Assembly (NCBI GenBank): GCA_024278345.1
Contig: JAJRTK010000069.1
Location: forward strand, 1-12,239
Source: a bacterium
Lineage (GTDB): Bacteria; CSSED10-310; JAJRTK01
DNA length: 12,239 nt
Direction: 5' to 3'
In this document: positions 2,114 through 9,541 of the stretch, one piece after another
Numbering within the stretch: the stretch's first letter is position 1
How the letters are laid out: each line of letters opens with the position of its first letter
The notes under the pieces: generated by a model
Seen by the model: the letters and a program-made list of their open reading frames with translations, nothing else
What the model was told of the DNA's origin: nothing
Databases searched by the model: none
Position numbers and translations under genes: made by a program

Positions 2114-3187
2114 TTACTTCGGAAGCCAACCCAAAAGGCCGTCCACAATTTCTCCAATGTTGCCGCCCCCGAAATGATGAGCCACCCCGGAAATCAGTTT
2201 CGCCTGCCAAACGATGACGACGATCGCCACCGCGGGATAAGTGACCCATGGCATCACGGTATCCACCAACGTCCTCATCCGCCGCTCCGCAGACTCGAAC
2301 AACCCCTCCGCGAGCTTGGAAGCCGTGCCGTCCAGCTTTCCGGCTTCGAAAGCCGAGTCAAGAGTTCCGTAAATAGCCGCGTCCATCCAGCCCACTCGCC
2401 TCCACCTGGAAAAGGCAAAACCGGGCACCTCGTCAAACGCAGGTGTGAGATATGAAAAACGCCATGTCCACAGCCTGTTGCTGGAACTCTGCCCGGCGAG
2501 TTCGATGGCTTCCCGTAGCTCGAGTCCAGCGGCCAGCAACATCGAAAATACTTTCAAATACTGGCTGATACAGAGATCTCGCAACGCTTTGGAATAAAAA
2601 GGGATGAAGGCGACTATCGCGTCGATGAGCAACCCGAGATAGGGAACGAGCCGCAGCCACAATAGTGTTGCCAAGAGCCCCGCTAGTCCCACCACAACAG
2701 CCACCGCTGGAATCAGTGTCCCCGTGACCATCGACATGGCTGCACCGTACCTGTCCTCGGCAATCCAAATCAGCACTCCCTCGAACAACAGGATGGCCAT
2801 GAAAAGGTTAACCAGGGGCCGAACCATGAGCGAACGGGCGTGACCTAGAAAGCATGCACGGTTCTCGCTCTGCTCCGCCAGCATGGTCAGAGTGCCTTCC
2901 AAGGTTCCGCTGTCGAGCCCGATTCGGACCAGCGAGACTTCCACTGGCGCAAAGAGAACCGATTCCTTTTTCATCACCTCGTCGAGGCGCATTCCGGCGT
3001 GGAGAAAGCGAGACATTCTCTTGATCGCGCCGCGGAGGTTGCCGCTCTTCGCCGACGGAAACGCTCGATCCACTGCCTCCGGCAGGCCGACTCCGGCGCT
3101 GAATTGATTGCGGAGCGAAAGGAAGAATCGGTGTTTTTCTTCGCTTGATGCGCCGGGGGAAATGACACTGAACAGGCTGTACAGCAT
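2114..3187 (-). CDS. GspF-like type II secretion/type IV pilus inner-membrane platform protein (orphan)
   Basis: A 357-aa polytopic inner-membrane protein with two T2SSF-type helical domains, about residues 18-140 and 205-330. Each repeats the family layout: LRNQFSAGVGLPEAVDRA and LVRIGLDSGTLEGTLTML in the first, YLKVFSMLLAAGLELREAIE and AFEAGKLDGTASKLAEGL in the second. Hydrophobic segments lie near 125-143, 157-180 and 311-328, matching the usual three membrane helices. In GspF/PilC this protein is the platform for pilin or pseudopilin assembly under an ATPase. Here no GspE/PilB ATPase, secretin or pseudopilin gene is nearby, so the role is unclear. It starts 28 bases after the stop of the large barrel protein and probably shares its transcript; the ribosome binding site is weak. 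Length is a little under the roughly 400 aa usual for GspF, and the conserved pattern is looser than in bona fide secretion systems. Confidence 0.82.
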   Translation of the reverse strand: MLYSLFSVISPGASSEEKHRFFLSLRNQFSAGVGLPEAVDRAFPSAKSGNLRGAIKRMSRFLHAGMRLDEVMKKESVLFAPVEVSLVRIGLDSGTLEGTLTMLAEQSENRACFLGHARSLMVRPLVNLFMAILLFEGVLIWIAEDRYGAAMSMVTGTLIPAVAVVVGLAGLLATLLWLRLVPYLGLLIDAIVAFIPFYSKALRDLCISQYLKVFSMLLAAGLELREAIELAGQSSSNRLWTWRFSYLTPAFDEVPGFAFSRWRRVGWMDAAIYGTLDSAFEAGKLDGTASKLAEGLFESAERRMRTLVDTVMPWVTYPAVAIVVIVWQAKLISGVAHHFGGGNIGEIVDGLLGWLPK

Positions 3188-3215: not shown

Positions 3216-6044
3216 TCAAAACACGACTCCGCGGCCCACGGAGAAAGTCAGGGCTACATTGTCATCTATGGTATCGAGGTTCGTCCGAAATGCCAATGTC
3301 AACCGAAAATCCAGAGAACCAACTCTCACAGCCGCCCGGGCACCCAGGGATGCTTTCAAATCTTCCAGCTGAAATCTCGGTTTGCTCTTCCACGGATCGA
3401 AACGACTCCATTGCTCAAAAGTTGCTCCCATGTCGGCGAAAACCGCTCCCCGAACTCCCCCTGTACGAAGCCAGCTTCGGACCGCCAGATGATCGATGAT
3501 GGGAAAACGAAGCTCGACATTGCCAAGAAGGTAGTTTTCGCCCGTGAATGCCTCAAGGCCGTAGCCTCGCAGAGAGCGGTCTCCGCCCAGGCTGAAATAG
3601 AGAGGATCCGCACCCATGGAGGAGCCCGCAGCCATCCGAATGGCAGCGACGGTGCGCCGAAGAAGGGGCACATAGAAACGTTGTTCCAATTCCAAGGAAG
3701 ACTGTGACAGGAGCCCGTCCAGGGGAATGCTCCCGGTTGCTTCCATGCGGAGTTCCCAGCCAGACCTGGGACCCAGAGCACCCATATGCACCCTGTCGTT
3801 CAGGAATCTTGCCGACACCGCTAGCCTCTTTTGAGATCTCGAACCATAAATCCCGTAGTTCCCGGAACTCTTCCATCTTTTGACAGTCACGTCGGACTCG
3901 ATCCTGGTGGTTCGGCTCAACGGGTAGACAGCGAAGGCACTTCCCCACTGCTCGGAGTACTTTTGTTTTGCTCCCTGGAAACGGACCCAACGCCGTTGAT
4001 GTCCAGCTGTGACTCCCAGGGTGAGCCTTCGCCGAAGGTTTGCATAACTCCCGGAGAACCCCTCCAGATACGCGTCGCTGGAGAACCGAACCTGGAACTG
4101 ATGCTCGGCGGGCCGGTCAGAGAGAGAGAGAAACGCCGAAAAAAGGAACCGCTGGTCCTCAGCCCAGCCAAGGCGATAACCAAGATTGTGTAATCGAAGA
4201 GAGGCTCTCACCTTCTCGCCAGACAGCTCTGAAAGCGCCTCTCCTGTTGCCGGCCTCGCCATGCGGGCAGCAGACAGAGAGATCTCTTCGCTCGGCCTTT
4301 CCAGGGAAGACATCCGCAACGCTGGCCGCACCGAGCGGACGCGAAAACGGCCCCTTTCCAGTTGAGAGAAGAACACACGCCCATCCGGGCCTTGAGTCGG
4401 CCATGCCGTTTGCGTGAAGGTTTTGGTTAGGCGCGTGGCAGTCAAGGTCTTGGGATCGACCCGGTAAATGTCGGCGACGCCGCTTCGATCCCAGACCGCC
4501 AAGATTCCAGCCTTACTCCAAGTCGCCTGGAAAAAAGTGGATCGCGCGTTGAGCAAGGGCCGCGTTTTACGTTCGGTCAGGGTAAGAAGAAGGAGTTGTG
4601 GATGCTGATTTCGCTCAGAGGTGTAGACGAGCTCTCGGCCCGACGGGGACCAAGAAGGTTCTCCATCGACGGCGGTATCATCTGTGATCTGCTCCAATGT
4701 CCCGGTTTTTTCATCGTAGATGAAAACATCTGATTGCCCGTTCAGGAATCCTGCCATGGCCACTTGCCGTCCGTCCGGATGGACGCTTGGAGAACTCGCT
4801 GATTGGAGGCCAACGTCCAGGGCACGAGTGATCCTCTTTCGGGCCAAGTCATAGAAGCACAGGCGCAAGTCCCCATTGACCGTTGCAAAAAAAAGGATCT
4901 GAAAACCGTCCGGTGTCCAACTGAGCGGACGACCATTCGTGACGAAAGCGTCCACCTTCCGAAACCTGTGGGAAGCGCGCTGAAAAGGTGCGCCATCTCG
5001 TAGCCGATGGATCGCCAGCGTTGGCCTGCCGTCCATCGATGTAATGCTCGCCAGTAATTCACCAGCGGGGGAGATCACCGCGCCAATATGCGCGCCAGAT
5101 CCTCCTTCCGCCCATGGCGTCGATGTCGGAGGACCGCTTTCCGGTGCGCTGAAAAGGGCCGCGTTCTTCACCAGGAGCCGCCGCCGGAGAGCCTCATCCA
5201 GTTCCCAAAGCTGGTGGCGAGTCGCTCCAAAGAACGCCTCCGCCAGATCTGGATGGCGTCCTTGTAAGCGCAGGTTGGACAAAACTCGCATGAGGATATC
5301 GTCGCCATATTGCTCCAACATCAACTCGATCGTGGCATGCCCCACCGCGTATCCCAAGAAGGGCTGGCGCAGCCTGCGAAAGCTCCCAAGATCTCCCAGG
5401 TGAGGGAAGCTCCAAAACATCAGCGCATCCCGCAGAATTGCACGATCCCAGACCGCCCACTGGTCAGTGGCGCTTTCGGCAAGTCCTTCCAAAAACCAAA
5501 GTGGCAGTGAGTTGCGCAGGCCTCGCAACCCCGCTTGGCCCATGGCGCGGCGGGCAAGGAGGTGAGCAAGCTCGTGAACAATCAGCTCCTCCATTGCTTG
5601 GCGTGAATCGTCCCCCGGGATGGCGATTCTTTCCTGGAGCGGTTCGGAGAATCCCCGGGAATCCGGGCGTGCCGCGCCGGAGAGAACGCGGGTTTCACGG
5701 AGATCGGCCATGCTCGGGTAGACGAGAATGGTGATGGCTTGGCGCTGTTGGAATTCTTCTTCTCGATCCAGACCGTAGAGGGTGCGAAGTTTCTCCCCAG
5801 CTTTCTCGGCCTCGGCGGCGAGCCATGGAAGCAGTTGTGCCGAGGATTCTGTATAGAAAAAATCAAAATTCTCCGTCTTGTGGAGGCGCCACTTGAGAGG
5901 AGCGTGGGGAAGCCTGTTACGGCTGTGGCCTTCCACAGGTTCGAGAAAGGGCAAGAAGAAAACCGCGTACTGGAGGGCGAGAAGCAGGAATCCCACGATG
6001 GCCCGAGGAAAGTGAATCACGGTGGTCTCTCGTTTTGTTGCCAT
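3216..6044 (-). CDS. Exported peptidase-like / TolB-like propeller / Omp85 barrel fusion protein
   Basis: A protein of 942 aa from ATG 6044. Numbering from the GTG at 6053 (945 aa), I see: a signal-like hydrophobic segment (18-36); a gluzincin-like region (about 55-300) with zinc motif HELAH (160-164) and, 25 residues on, WFLEGLAE supplying the expected third ligand Glu189; a PD40/TolB-like beta-propeller (about 320-570) with repeats such as SSPSVHPDGRQVAMAG, DGEPSWSPSGRELVYTS and TQGPDGRVFFSQ; and a beta-barrel (about 615-945) with the Omp85 motif SLRGY (827-831) and a terminal Phe. POTRA domains, normal in Omp85 proteins, are not seen. The N-terminal domains should face the periplasm. Starts are ambiguous: ATG 6044 has a weak GGTGG, while GTG 6020 would give a GTGA overlap with the upstream gene's stop and also leaves a good signal peptide. 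Neighbours are two putative lipoproteins upstream and the GspF-like gene downstream. Possible roles are outer-membrane protein assembly, quality control or export; the substrate is unknown. Confidence 0.85.
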   Translation of the reverse strand: MATKRETTVIHFPRAIVGFLLLALQYAVFFLPFLEPVEGHSRNRLPHAPLKWRLHKTENFDFFYTESSAQLLPWLAAEAEKAGEKLRTLYGLDREEEFQQRQAITILVYPSMADLRETRVLSGAARPDSRGFSEPLQERIAIPGDDSRQAMEELIVHELAHLLARRAMGQAGLRGLRNSLPLWFLEGLAESATDQWAVWDRAILRDALMFWSFPHLGDLGSFRRLRQPFLGYAVGHATIELMLEQYGDDILMRVLSNLRLQGRHPDLAEAFFGATRHQLWELDEALRRRLLVKNAALFSAPESGPPTSTPWAEGGSGAHIGAVISPAGELLASITSMDGRPTLAIHRLRDGAPFQRASHRFRKVDAFVTNGRPLSWTPDGFQILFFATVNGDLRLCFYDLARKRITRALDVGLQSASSPSVHPDGRQVAMAGFLNGQSDVFIYDEKTGTLEQITDDTAVDGEPSWSPSGRELVYTSERNQHPQLLLLTLTERKTRPLLNARSTFFQATWSKAGILAVWDRSGVADIYRVDPKTLTATRLTKTFTQTAWPTQGPDGRVFFSQLERGRFRVRSVRPALRMSSLERPSEEISLSAARMARPATGEALSELSGEKVRASLRLHNLGYRLGWAEDQRFLFSAFLSLSDRPAEHQFQVRFSSDAYLEGFSGSYANLRRRLTLGVTAGHQRRWVRFQGAKQKYSEQWGSAFAVYPLSRTTRIESDVTVKRWKSSGNYGIYGSRSQKRLAVSARFLNDRVHMGALGPRSGWELRMEATGSIPLDGLLSQSSLELEQRFYVPLLRRTVAAIRMAAGSSMGADPLYFSLGGDRSLRGYGLEAFTGENYLLGNVELRFPIIDHLAVRSWLRTGGVRGAVFADMGATFEQWSRFDPWKSKPRFQLEDLKASLGARAAVRVGSLDFRLTLAFRTNLDTIDDNVALTFSVGRGVVF

Positions 6045-6769
6045 ACAGGCCACCAGGGGCAGAGGAGACGGCGCTGCACGTTCGGCTCCTCTTGCAGCGC
6101 AAGGACAAGCTTCTTCATGACCCCTTGGAGCATGGAATTCCGCAATACCGCTTCCCTCTCAAGCTGTTTTCCTTCCACGATGGAGTGCGCCACGAAGGAG
6201 CGCCGGAGCTGAACCCGGTTGTTGCGAAGATCGCGGAACTCGATTTTCAAGCGGAGCAGAAGTTTGGTGCGCCGGACAAAAACCGGCCAGCCCTGGCTTT
6301 GGCCGGCGTTCTTCACCTGTCTGTCCCATGTTGAGGCATCTTGTCTGTAATAGCCGAAACGACCGGTGATCAGGCCATCGATAGTCCGGCCTTCAAAAGA
6401 GAGGCCAGGCCCGAGGGACTTGGGGATCTCGTTGGCACGGAGCAGCCTCCGGTAAACGGGGAAAGGGGCTAGCTTCTCCAACTCGAAGAGCAGCAGGCGG
6501 GAGGCTAGTTCGGCTTCTCGTGCTTGCCCAGTTCCCAAGAGCGGCGTCAACTCTTGCAGAGCCACCAAAGAGTAGACGTGGCGCCTATTTTTTTCCCATG
6601 GCTCTGGAAAAGAGAGCTCCGTCACTCCATGGCAACTCACCGAGAGAGCGAGCGCTAGCAGGACCCAGCCAGTTGCCGGGACTCCATGCATTGACATGAG
6701 CGGGTCCCCGTGAAAAAACATCAGGGCCGCCTGTTTCAGCCCTTGGCACGGTGTAAGATCGGGCTTCAT
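6017..6769 (-). CDS. Putative outer-membrane lipoprotein of unrecognised family
   Basis: 250 aa from ATG 6769. A hydrophobic segment (about residues 34-45) ends in ALSVSC, so Cys46 may be lipidated after signal cleavage. The mature part has no motif I can name. It alternates helices with strand-like stretches (TIDGLITGRFGYYRQ, VRRTKLLLRLKIEFRDLRNNRV) and ends in a helix before a Trp/Pro-rich tail. That layout loosely recalls LptE- or LpoB/CsgG-like envelope lipoproteins, but this is only an impression. ATG 6769 overlaps the TPR gene's stop as ATGA, which favours translational coupling; however ATG 6697 has GGGGA 7 bases upstream and would leave a normal 21-residue signal peptide, so it is a strong alternative. 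The 3' end overlaps the start region of the large barrel gene, indicating one operon and perhaps a partner function at the outer membrane. Confidence 0.72.
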   Translation of the reverse strand: MKPDLTPCQGLKQAALMFFHGDPLMSMHGVPATGWVLLALALSVSCHGVTELSFPEPWEKNRRHVYSLVALQELTPLLGTGQAREAELASRLLLFELEKLAPFPVYRRLLRANEIPKSLGPGLSFEGRTIDGLITGRFGYYRQDASTWDRQVKNAGQSQGWPVFVRRTKLLLRLKIEFRDLRNNRVQLRRSFVAHSIVEGKQLEREAVLRNSMLQGVMKKLVLALQEEPNVQRRLLCPWWPVWQQNERPP

Positions 6770-7164
6770 GGGCGTTCATCGGGCGGGCCGTTTGCGTGTT
6801 GCGGGCCCGCCGGGCGCTGCGCCAGCGCGCGCTGAAGATTTTCGCGGATCCCCGCGTCTCTTGGTTCCAGAGCTGCCGCCACCTTGTAGTGCTCCAGCGC
6901 CGTTGCCCGCTCCCCCAGTGCTTCAAGGCAGATTGCCAGGTTATTATGGAGGGCCGCATTCGCAGGTTCTTTGGCCAAGTGACTTTCCAGCCGGCTGCGG
7001 GCCTCCTGCCAAAGCTGCTGCTCCATTAGAGTCTGGATCAGGCGATGCTCCGGAGAATAGGCACATCCGTGGAAGAAGAGGCTCCAGCAGCCGATCCAGA
7101 GGAAAAATCGCCGGTTTGCCAAAGACCCCAAGAATGCTCGGAAAATATTAGTGAGAAAGGGCAT
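6766..7164 (-). CDS. Small TPR-repeat putative lipoprotein
   Basis: 132 aa from ATG 7164. An RR-containing hydrophobic segment (18-33) ends in LFFHGC, so Cys34 is a candidate lipidation site; Phe and His in the lipobox are not canonical. Residues 40-110 form about two TPR units, including the typical stretch NAALHNNLAICLEALGERAT and the closing ALEHYKVAAALEP. The tail is Pro/Gly/Arg-rich. TPR domains bind other proteins, so an adaptor role for the envelope module is likely. The start is uncertain: ATG 7164 lies only 11 bases past the T-tract of the tonB terminator and has no good ribosome binding site; TTG at 7131 or 7122 would give a more usual signal-peptide length. The stop overlaps the next gene's ATG (ATGA). 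It is the first gene of the module that runs to the barrel protein. Confidence 0.75.
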   Translation of the reverse strand: MPFLTNIFRAFLGSLANRRFFLWIGCWSLFFHGCAYSPEHRLIQTLMEQQLWQEARSRLESHLAKEPANAALHNNLAICLEALGERATALEHYKVAAALEPRDAGIRENLQRALAQRPAGPQHANGPPDERP

Positions 7165-7247: not shown

Positions 7248-7922
7248 TTACTTGAGTTGGAAGCGGACGGTCAGTGTCATGTAGGCATCCACTGGCCGGC
7301 CATTGATGTAGCCAGGTTCAAACTTCCACTTTTTCAGGGCCTTGACCGCTGCTTCGTTGCACCCGCTCTTGCCAAGACCTCGGAGGACCCGAATGTCCCC
7401 GACTCTTCCATTCCTTTGAATGACTGCTTCGAGGATGACGATGCCCTGAACGCGAGCCCGGCGTGCCATTTCCGGGTAAAGGGGATCCACCTGCTTGAGG
7501 ATCTTAGGCTGAACGCCGTCAACACCAATGCGGATAGGACCCGAATCACCCATATCCAACGGCGGACCTTCAGGTTCGCCAAAGATAATCTCCACATCGG
7601 GGGGGATGAGGTCGATATCTGGATCTGGCTCCGGTTCCACAACCGGTTCAGGCTCGTCCGGCGTCGGATCAGGGATCGGCTTCGGTTTCGTCCGCTTCTT
7701 CTTGATAATCTTCTTTTGTTTCGGAGCTAGTTTCTTCTTCGGCGGCTTGAAACGCCGAATCGTGACGACCTTCTTTTGGCTCGAATCGAAGATCCGTGCT
7801 TGGCCCTCCGGGATCTTCACGTAGAGAAGCACCACGTGGAAAATCGCCGAGAAGAGCGTCCCGACGAAGATGTCCTGACGATCTCTAGCTCGTATGGCTA
7901 TGATCTCTTCTTGTGTCAGCAT
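7248..7922 (-). CDS. tonB: TonB family energy transducer
   Basis: 224 aa, the arm that carries force from the ExbB/ExbD motor across the periplasm to outer-membrane receptors. A cytoplasmic N-terminus (1-16) is followed by one membrane helix (about 17-36, containing the family's usual His at 29), a Lys/Pro-rich stretch (57-82), a Glu/Asp/Pro-rich stretch (83-120) and the TonB C-terminal domain (about 138-224). The last shows the family features DPLYPEMARRARVQGIVILE, NGRVGDIRVL, AAVKALKKWKFEPG and a final strand ending TVRFQLK. The switch from basic to acidic in the linker is typical of TonB spacers. ATG 7922 has GAGGAG 7 bases upstream. It is the last gene of its operon, 24 bases after the second exbD, and a strong terminator follows. 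No TonB-dependent receptor is in the window. Confidence 0.96.
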   Translation of the reverse strand: MLTQEEIIAIRARDRQDIFVGTLFSAIFHVVLLYVKIPEGQARIFDSSQKKVVTIRRFKPPKKKLAPKQKKIIKKKRTKPKPIPDPTPDEPEPVVEPEPDPDIDLIPPDVEIIFGEPEGPPLDMGDSGPIRIGVDGVQPKILKQVDPLYPEMARRARVQGIVILEAVIQRNGRVGDIRVLRGLGKSGCNEAAVKALKKWKFEPGYINGRPVDAYMTLTVRFQLK

Positions 7923-7946
7923 GGCGAGGCTCCTCGACGATGGCAG

Positions 7947-8372
7947 CTACGAGCCTTCACCCCACGAGGCAATCTCCTCCCTCGTGGGTAAGGCGATGTT
8001 CTTGACGTCTAGCTGCTTGAGCTCGTCCAAAACGTCAATCATATTGCCGTACTGGGCGTCGCTATCAGTCTTGATGATCACGAATTTGTTGGGGTTAGCC
8101 GAGAGCTTTGGCATCAAGTAGGGCTTGATGTCCGTGAGGTTGAAGGGATTTCCATCCACAGTGACCCGGCCCCCCGGATCAATGTCGATGAGCACCGCTC
8201 GGACATCCTCTGGACTCTTGTTTTGGTCGTCCCTTGGAAGGTTGAAGTCAATGCCTTTCTTTGCGGAAAACGCGGTCGTCACCATGAAAAAGATGATGAG
8301 CAGAAAGGCGATATCAGCCATCGACGACGATGGTATGCCTTCGTTGGGAGTTGATCGCTGCTTGTACTTCAA
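7947..8372 (-). CDS. exbD: ExbD/TolR-family protein, second copy, TTG start
   Basis: 141 aa. It has a short cytoplasmic N-terminus, a membrane helix (about 18-35) with the proton-path aspartate at Asp20, then a periplasmic domain ending VKNIALPTREE. The 18 residues SSMADIAFLLIIFFMVTT are identical to the first exbD, but the periplasmic domains differ clearly: this one carries an insert around DDQNKSPEDVRA and a longer C-terminal tail. The start is TTG at 8372: no ATG or GTG lies in frame nearby, and GGAGG stands 7 bases upstream. It is 64 bases after the first exbD and 24 bases before tonB. ExbD works as a dimer inside an ExbB pentamer, so the two may form a heterodimer, or serve different motors. 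TTG may lower its synthesis relative to its neighbour (inference). Confidence 0.95.
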   Translation of the reverse strand: MKYKQRSTPNEGIPSSSMADIAFLLIIFFMVTTAFSAKKGIDFNLPRDDQNKSPEDVRAVLIDIDPGGRVTVDGNPFNLTDIKPYLMPKLSANPNKFVIIKTDSDAQYGNMIDVLDELKQLDVKNIALPTREEIASWGEGS

Positions 8373-8379
8373 ATGAAAA

Positions 8380-8384
8380 CCTCC
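8380..8384 (-). promoter_or_regulatory. Ribosome binding site fixing the TTG start of the second exbD
   Basis: GGAGG on the minus strand, 7 bases before TTG 8372. The next upstream codons in frame (CAT, TTT, GGT, GAG) are not start codons, so this site decides the unusual start. Confidence 0.85.
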
Positions 8385-8436
8385 GCCTTCAGAAGCTGAG
8401 GATACGAGGCAAATCGCTTGGCCTCAAAGCCTTGGC

Positions 8437-8835
8437 TTACTCACGATCCGTTGGCAAAGAGATGTTCTTCACCTTGGCACGCCGAAGCTGTTCCAACAGT
8501 TCATCAATGTACCGATAGGGAGCCCGTTTGTCCGCCTTCAAGATGAAAACCCTCTCTGAGTTGCGGGCAACCTCAACCTCGGCAATGTTTTGCACTTCGG
8601 CCATGACCGCAGTTTTTCCCTGAATCTTAATGTCCCCTTCATGGGTCACCGAAATGGTGATGGCATCCTTGGGGATTTCTACTCGCTCCGTTGTCTTGGG
8701 CAACGTCACGGGCGTTTTGTCCACCGTGAACGTCGTGGTCACCATGAAGAAGATGATGAGCAGGAAAGCAATGTCCGCCATGGACGAGTCGGGAATCTTG
8801 TCCTCGACTTTCGAGCTGGCCTTGAGTTTCATCAT
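8437..8835 (-). CDS. exbD: ExbD/TolR-family protein, first copy
   Basis: 132 aa. It has an N-terminal cytoplasmic stretch with basic residues, a membrane helix (about 19-37) with the essential aspartate at Asp21, and a periplasmic domain closing with AKVKNISLPTDRE. With ExbB it forms the proton-driven motor that energises TonB. ATG 8835 is supported by GGAGGG with 7-base spacing (8848-8843); ATG 8832 is the next codon. It is 31 bases after exbB and 64 bases before the second exbD. Its membrane segment is identical to that of the second exbD over 18 residues and unlike that of tolR, so the pair looks like a duplication within the TonB cassette. Confidence 0.95.
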   Translation of the reverse strand: MMKLKASSKVEDKIPDSSMADIAFLLIIFFMVTTTFTVDKTPVTLPKTTERVEIPKDAITISVTHEGDIKIQGKTAVMAEVQNIAEVEVARNSERVFILKADKRAPYRYIDELLEQLRRAKVKNISLPTDRE

Positions 8836-8866
8836 GGGATTACCCTCCGCACTTCAACAGTCAGTG

Positions 8867-9541
8867 TCAGAACGGACGGGTTTGTTCCATGGCCGGATTG
8901 GCATCCCGGTTGTCAACGAACCCAGCCTCTTCCGATTCCGTCAGGAACTCCAGCATCAGGGCGGAAGATTCTTCCATTTCCAGAACCATTTTGGAAACCC
9001 GGCTCGAAAAGTAGTTGTACGACGCCAAGACCGGAATGGCGATGATGAGGCCCGTAGCCGTTGTGATCAAGGCTTCCGAGATACCGATTGCCACAAGGGC
9101 AGGGTTGTTGAGACCCGCCTTGGCGATGGCCCAAAACGCCCCGATCATACCGGTAACCGTGCCAAGGAAGCCCATGAGCGGCGCAATGTTCGCCACCGAC
9201 ACGAGAACCACGAGTCCGCGCTCCAGGCGAGACAGTTCCAGCCCACCGGAAAACTCGATGGCCTTTTCGATCTCCTCTCGACCACGGTCGTACTTCAAAA
9301 GGCCCGCTTTCAAAATCGACGCGATGGGACCACGATAAGCCTCGCAGATCTTGATCGCTTCTTTAATCCTCCCCTTTTTGATCACTTTTCGCATTTTATC
9401 AAGAAAGGCCGGCGTGTCGATGCTGGCTCGGTGGTAGTGCCAAAATCGCTCGATCATGAATCCGAGCGCAACAATCGAACAGAGCAGCAGCGGCCACATG
9501 ACCGGACCACCCTTGTCGAAATATTCAACCAGGCTGTCCAT
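8867..9541 (-). CDS. exbB: ExbB/TolQ/MotA-family proton channel protein
   Basis: 224 aa, the inner-membrane channel subunit of the TonB motor. Membrane segments are about 12-33 (GPVMWPLLLCSIVALGFMIE), 112-140 (with the family core APLMGFLGTVTGMIGAF) and 149-175 (GISEALITTATGLIIAIPVL). The N-terminus, with a GGPVMWPLL start into the first helix, matches the shorter ExbB/MotA-like class found beside exbD and tonB rather than Proteobacterial ExbB with an extra N-terminal region. ATG 9541 has AAGGGA 6 bases upstream and GGAGG 12 bases upstream. It heads exbB-exbD-exbD-tonB, 174 bases after the oppF stop, so it may have its own promoter in that gap. It is paralogous to tolQ at 957-1694 but differs in length and loop size. 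Confidence 0.95.
   Translation of the reverse strand: MDSLVEYFDKGGPVMWPLLLCSIVALGFMIERFWHYHRASIDTPAFLDKMRKVIKKGRIKEAIKICEAYRGPIASILKAGLLKYDRGREEIEKAIEFSGGLELSRLERGLVVLVSVANIAPLMGFLGTVTGMIGAFWAIAKAGLNNPALVAIGISEALITTATGLIIAIPVLASYNYFSSRVSKMVLEMEESSALMLEFLTESEEAGFVDNRDANPAMEQTRPF

Follow-up and report, generated by a model that had tools for sequence, protein, structure and literature searches.

A zinc peptidase-like domain, a TolB-type propeller and an Omp85 barrel on one chain form the usual architecture of a widespread outer-membrane protein family

The gene at positions 3216..6044 on the reverse strand of the window, by which we mean the whole stretch of 12,239 nucleotides that was analyzed, encodes one chain made up of a signal peptide, a gluzincin-type domain, a TolB-type propeller and a 16-strand Omp85 barrel. 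This three-domain form is the normal architecture of a widespread outer-membrane protein family that is functionally unstudied. Omp85 proteins are builders of the outer membrane, and almost all descriptions of them feature POTRA domains plus a barrel. The fusion may be an accessory assembly factor of the Omp85 superfamily at the outer membrane, with its own zinc metallopeptidase processing or removing clients, a reading to which we give a probability of about 0.4. The chief competing readings are that the fusion has a TamA-like role in which the peptidase domain is structural, that it processes a specific substrate, or that it is a protease at the cell surface.

Domain architecture of the fusion protein

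The open reading frame is intact over positions 3216-6053; the ATG at 6044 gives a protein of 942 amino acids, and a GTG at 6053 is a possible alternative start. All window features described below lie on the same reverse strand. AlphaFold2 modeling of the whole chain with 45 aligned sequences gave a mean pLDDT of 78 and a pTM of 0.76. The original prediction had placed a peptidase-like domain, a propeller and an Omp85 barrel in one polypeptide, and all three are supported by profiles, including Pfam, by the AlphaFold2 model and by conservation. The N-terminal hydrophobic segment (approximately residues 10-39, 5928..6017) is, from the sequence and the alignment, a probable signal peptide, and it is followed directly by an FGKNK motif in the relatives.

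The peptidase domain (approximately residues 40-300, 5145..5927) was recognized by its matches to Peptidase_MA_2 and to M9 and M1 peptidases and in the model. The Peptidase_MA_2 match (3.2e-4) was below the Pfam cut-off for the window protein; among four scanned relatives, three were above the cut-off of 32.4 bits (L115, L126 and L084, 34.5-51.9 bits) and one, L131, was below it. A profile built solely from the peptidase domains matched M9 collagenases (3.3e-4) and the cold-active aminopeptidase 3cia (0.01), which we take to belong to the M1 family. The HELAH motif (residues 157-161, 5562..5576) contains the predicted zinc ligands H157 and H161 and the predicted catalytic E158, and Glu186 in PLWFLEGLAE (5487..5489) is the predicted third ligand; in the profile alignment, the HExxH motif and the downstream Glu were in register with those of the M9 collagenases shown. 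The model places HELAH in the helix 148-167 and Glu186 in the helix 182-192, a helix order as expected for a gluzincin. The best structural matches listed for the whole model were all to TolB and BamA, which left no place among them for a gluzincin. Judged by its profile, the domain is of the gluzincin type, nearest to the collagenase M9 and M1 gluzincins. The M48 family was also considered; by profile the domain does not belong to it, as neither the window protein nor the scanned relatives matched Peptidase_M48 (PF01435) at E <= 0.1.

Six residues (H157, E158, H161, W183, E186 and G187) were invariant in 20 of 20 diverse full-length relatives as well as in the 45 aligned sequences, and the HExxH motif and Glu were present in all 60 further ORFs sampled, among which L236 carries the variant TWLIEG. 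The two His and two Glu were thus retained in 20/20, 45/45 and 60/60 sequences, so the domain is likely an active zinc enzyme. Loss of these ligands, named beforehand as a result that would refute the prediction, was therefore not seen.

The six-bladed propeller (approximately residues 309-573, 4326..5120) matched PD40 (4.7e-12) in Pfam and TolB (5e-18) in a phmmer search against the PDB, in which S9 peptidases (8wt1) also proved to have propellers of this kind. Superposition of the modeled propeller on TolB (2hqs_A) with VIA-align gave a Z score of 26.4 over 244 residues at 2.4 Å. The fusion reached 95 bits against the cut-off of 343 for the TolB equivalog TIGR02800, its chain had no Pfam match to the TolB_N domain, and NCBIfam has no model whose cut-off is passed by the fusion family.

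Between propeller and barrel lies a linker (approximately residues 574-616, 4197..4325). The absence of POTRA domains, as proposed from the sequence, was borne out by the Pfam scan, which found no match to any POTRA family in the fusion or in the scanned relatives, and by the model, in which the poorly predicted stretch of about 45 residues (573-616) shows no POTRA-like fold. The barrel (approximately residues 617-942, 3219..4196) matched Omp85 (PF01103) above the cut-off, at 9.2e-12 over positions 130-322 of the 325 in the profile. A barrel of about 16 strands with SLRGY and a terminal Phe had been expected, and the whole-chain model gave 16 long strands at residues 617-937. The SLRGY motif (residues 825-829, 3558..3572) corresponds to the VRGF/Y-type motif of Omp85 loop 6, with R826 and G827 conserved, and the chain ends in GRGVVF, with F942 as its last residue. 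The modeled barrel aligned to BamA (8xnb_A) with a VIA-align Z score of 22.4 over 299 residues at 3.3 Å, a profile built from the barrels alone also matched BamA, and the structural neighbors of the barrel include TamA as well as BamA.

Distribution of the three-domain architecture

Both within the phylum of the window and outside it, a search of 60 genomes identified full-length, collinear relatives. The single protein used as a query against the genome contigs gave no confirmed relatives. A search with an alignment of relatives did find further ones; those with taxon names were mostly Candidatus Poribacteria, and also CSSED10-310 and Acidobacteria/Vicinamibacteria. The peptidase profile matched 210 of 386 sampled genomes (E <= 1e-10), and most strong matches were in frames 900-1200 residues long; judged by this profile, a family in which a conserved zinc peptidase and a propeller replace the POTRA domains is present in about half of the genomes sampled.

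We read 60 ORFs in full, one per genome, picked from the strong matches to the peptidase profile. Peptidase and barrel were present in all 60, a propeller score was also obtained, completing the three domains, in 59, and 59 ended in Phe, Trp or Tyr. The exact three-domain form, singled out in the original prediction as the part to test, is not special to this genome but is what most members of a broad family have. In 107 genomes, 54 barrel matches were obtained at E < 1e-26, and by a hand count from the two match lists 51 of them shared an ORF with a peptidase match. Of the other three, two are disrupted or located at contig edges, and the third (G096:C3) is the one exception. These results indicate that the peptidase and this type of barrel have been inherited together.

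Several copies of the fusion per genome were found in some lineages. The genome of the window itself has a second, divergent fusion of 1109 amino acids (L066:3751-7038, G000:C455; peptidase profile 2.9e-35, barrel 6.5e-28). Multiple copies suggest substrate specialization, and this could mean that the fusion processes or imports one particular envelope or nutritional substrate at its barrel, with the propeller and peptidase handling entering peptides, a task unrelated to the assembly of outer-membrane proteins. The propellers of the same kind in S9 peptidases fit such a role. We consider it improbable, given the genes of outer-membrane biogenesis among the neighbors of the fusion in several lineages, and no Omp85 barrel is known to be a nutrient importer.

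Conserved lipoprotein genes upstream of the fusion

A trio comprising a TPR lipoprotein, a CsgG/LptE/TolB-N-like lipoprotein and the fusion is conserved and appears new. The TPR lipoprotein that had been noted beside the fusion is real and is a conserved neighbor: its gene (6766..7164) encodes a predicted lipoprotein of 132 amino acids recognized by a TPR profile, has 4 bases in common with the next gene, and matched a profile of the relatives built without the window copy at 4.6e-13. Between it and the fusion, a second small gene (6017..6769), absent from the original prediction, encodes a divergent predicted lipoprotein with a CsgG/LptE/PelC/TolB-N-domain fold, identified by profile, lipobox and family fold. 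The window copy is 12-20% identical to its relatives and matched a profile built without it at 6.7e-5; the lipobox Cys, Cys46 in the window, is invariant in the family. A sequence search for a solved relative of this lipoprotein found none. A model of the family, made from a poribacterial member (L106) and not from the window copy (pLDDT 83), resembled FlgT (Z 14.1), PelC (12.3), TolB-N (11.4) and LptE (11.3).

Among the loci from Poribacteria and CSSED10-310, 55 include sequence upstream of the fusion, and in 53 of these the TPR and CsgG/LptE-like genes were directly upstream of it. This count consists of 52 loci plus L125, whose second gene was recognized by a further profile search, and leaves out four loci at contig edges; of the two exceptions, L115 lacks the TPR gene but has the second one, and L108 lacks both. 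The pair was beside the fusion in none of 20 Acidobacteria-type loci, one of which begins at a contig edge. It was also located upstream of the fusion in the genomes G288, G153, G354 and G089, and, with weaker profile scores, in G246 and G121. Loci with the trio outside Poribacteria and CSSED10-310 were L213, L218, L235, L236, L231 and L240.

A quick tree was made of 93 fusions, and every row labeled with the trio falls into one group of 33 (support 100), some members of which are without the trio. The window forms a long branch in this tree, so its exact place is unsure. The fusion of L146, a record titled Acidimicrobiia bacterium, groups with Acidobacteria; the title or the binning of this record may be wrong. 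The conservation of the trio makes the two lipoproteins candidate partners of the fusion.

Gene neighborhoods and other envelope proteins

In two CSSED10-310 genomes (L048 and L049), bamA and skp-, lpxD- and lpxA-like genes lie approximately 5-6 kb upstream of the fusion, and in a third genome (L050), bamA and an lpxA-like gene are also upstream; bamA and the lpxA of L049 were named by Pfam, and skp, lpxD and the other lpxA copies by eye from the sequence. Genes adjoining the fusion in other lineages encode TamB (two genomes), MlaE (two), MlaD (two) and a BamB-like PQQ propeller (four). RseP was identified upstream by Pfam in one locus (L189), and three more proteins cluster with that of L189. 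Proteins with a GWxTD domain are encoded directly beside the fusion at L054:5771-7024 and in L193 and L201, and the Pfam count was three among the scanned neighbors. Housekeeping genes were at least as common among the neighbors, and the neighborhoods outside the trio clade were heterogeneous. The envelope-biogenesis genes among the neighbors favor a role in outer-membrane assembly but are suggestive only.

Besides the fusion, the genome of the window encodes a BamA-like protein of 867 amino acids (C85), two Omp85-TamB pairs resembling TamA-TamB (C525 and C48) and two M48 proteins (C381 and C22). That the fusion is the only BamA, TamA or BepA of the genome is ruled out by these separate copies. 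It therefore replaces none of them, and with all of them already present its task is not obvious.

These neighbors also bear on a different role, in which the fusion would be a TamA-like factor for lipid or outer-membrane protein assembly, with the peptidase domain mainly a binding scaffold and proteolysis minor or self-limited. The adjacency of TamB, MlaE and MlaD in several genomes, the presence of TamA with BamA among the structural neighbors of the barrel, and the LptE/TolB-N/PelC fold of the partner lipoprotein are all consistent with it. A mere scaffold, however, would not need the zinc ligands and catalytic Glu, which none of the complete relatives read has lost; TamB adjoins the fusion in few cases (2 of 60 sampled loci), and the same genome has its separate TamA-TamB-like pairs. 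We regard this role as rather unlikely.

In the window, genes for TonB, ExbD, ExbD and ExbB (7248-9541) lie directly upstream of the trio, a second ExbB/ExbD pair (147-1850) lies downstream of the fusion, and a lone type II secretion F-like gene (2114-3187) begins 28 bases after it. The upstream set, on the same strand, and the closeness of the propeller to TolB raise the idea of a Tol-Pal-like or TonB-like energized system in which ExbB, ExbD and TonB pull on the propeller. In the other loci tested, the surroundings of the fusion yielded no ExbB, ExbD or TonB gene. Since this synteny is confined to the window, the idea was dropped as the main reading, and we consider it very unlikely.

Proposed function

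In the reading as an accessory assembly factor, the peptidase and propeller would stay in the periplasm. This placement is made by analogy with PlpD, whose enzyme domain was found by experiment to be periplasmic (PMC11116518). The propeller and the two lipoproteins would receive clients, standing in for the POTRA domains and for partners like BamB and BamD, the seam of the barrel may help to insert or hold a client beta-barrel or a lipid-handling protein, and the peptidase may trim, mature or remove clients that stall at the barrel. The fusion would then be a single-chain counterpart of BamA plus BepA, in logic and not by descent; at BAM, BepA and the machine show the same division of labor on separate chains (reviewed in PMC13067283).

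The location of these domains is also where a surface protease would differ. If the barrel exported the N-terminal part of its own chain through the outer membrane, the result would be a secreted or surface-displayed peptidase, as in the original view of patatin-Omp85 proteins; a 2014 paper raises this option for enzyme-Omp85 fusions (PMC4104836). The nearest solved relatives of the peptidase domain by profile are collagenases, which fits this option. Collagenases are secreted enzymes. A 16-strand barrel would, however, hardly let a folded propeller and peptidase through, the partners conserved beside the fusion are lipoproteins by prediction, and the enzyme domain of PlpD turned out not to be on the surface but periplasmic. 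We judge a surface location to be improbable as well.

Some Omp85 barrels, such as those of PlpD and FhaC, do not insert outer-membrane proteins, which counts against the assembly-factor reading. A bolder version of that reading, in which the fusion is receptor, insertase and quality-control protease and forms, with the two lipoproteins, a second general route of outer-membrane assembly beside BAM and TAM in many diderms, appears doubtful to us. Should the peptidase act on clients at the barrel, a single molecule would combine insertion with proteolytic quality control, and how the cell chooses to fold or to degrade an outer-membrane protein that has stalled would become directly testable.

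Comparison with known systems

That propeller-barrel fusions were already annotated in other diderms, as the original prediction stated, is correct. A WD40-Omp85 subfamily with a TolB-like propeller before the Omp85 barrel was named in 2014 by Heinz and Lithgow, who likened it to a BamA-BamB fusion; like the fusion described here, it is defined by a propeller N-terminal to the barrel and by the lack of POTRA domains (PMC4104836). The accessible portion of that paper (PMC4104836) mentions neither a peptidase domain in this class nor partner lipoproteins, both of which the fusion has. Since the peptidase is present in nearly every member of the fusion family, the WD40-Omp85 subfamily, as far as the accessible portion describes it, may be this family. 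In the literature searched, which covered few subscription papers, nothing on the three-domain form or its function was found beyond the accessible portion of PMC4104836. Against this coverage, the near-universal intact peptidase domain of the family and the lipoprotein trio appear new.

Enzymes on Omp85 barrels are known from two other cases. PlpD and the patatin-Omp85 proteins also combine an enzyme and an Omp85 barrel on a single chain, but the enzyme of PlpD is a phospholipase instead of a peptidase, and PlpD has a POTRA domain. PF00149, which we take to be the calcineurin-like phosphoesterase family (Metallophos), is the domain to compare in the second case. The 'Metallo' subfamily of Omp85 is like the fusion in that an enzyme-like domain replaces POTRA on the barrel; according to the accessible portion of its description (PMC4104836) this domain is PF00149. 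It is thus not an HExxH peptidase, and the fusion had no PF00149 match in the Pfam scan.

BepA, of the M48 family, is a periplasmic zinc peptidase that acts at BAM, an Omp85 assembly machine (reviewed in PMC13067283). BepA and BamA together resemble the fusion in combining a zinc peptidase, in the fusion only probably periplasmic, with an Omp85 protein and in having a TPR unit nearby. BepA is, however, a separate polypeptide from BamA and an M48 member, whereas the TPRs of the fusion system are on a separate small lipoprotein. Because the peptidase of the fusion is not M48, BepA is at most a functional analogue: the proposed single-chain analogue works only as an analogy, and shared descent is not supported, no M48 match having been found at E <= 0.1.

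TamA-TamB is likewise built on an Omp85 barrel, and TamB adjoins the fusion in two genomes; the fusion differs from TamA in having no POTRA domains and in its additional peptidase and propeller, and separate TamA-TamB-like pairs occur in the same genome. TolB of the Tol-Pal system resembles the fusion in the fold and sequence of the propeller (Z 26.4), and the family of the second gene of the trio has a fold like the TolB N-terminal domain (Z 11.4). Unlike in TolB, the propeller of the fusion continues into a barrel, and the TolB-N-like domain forms a lipoprotein of its own.
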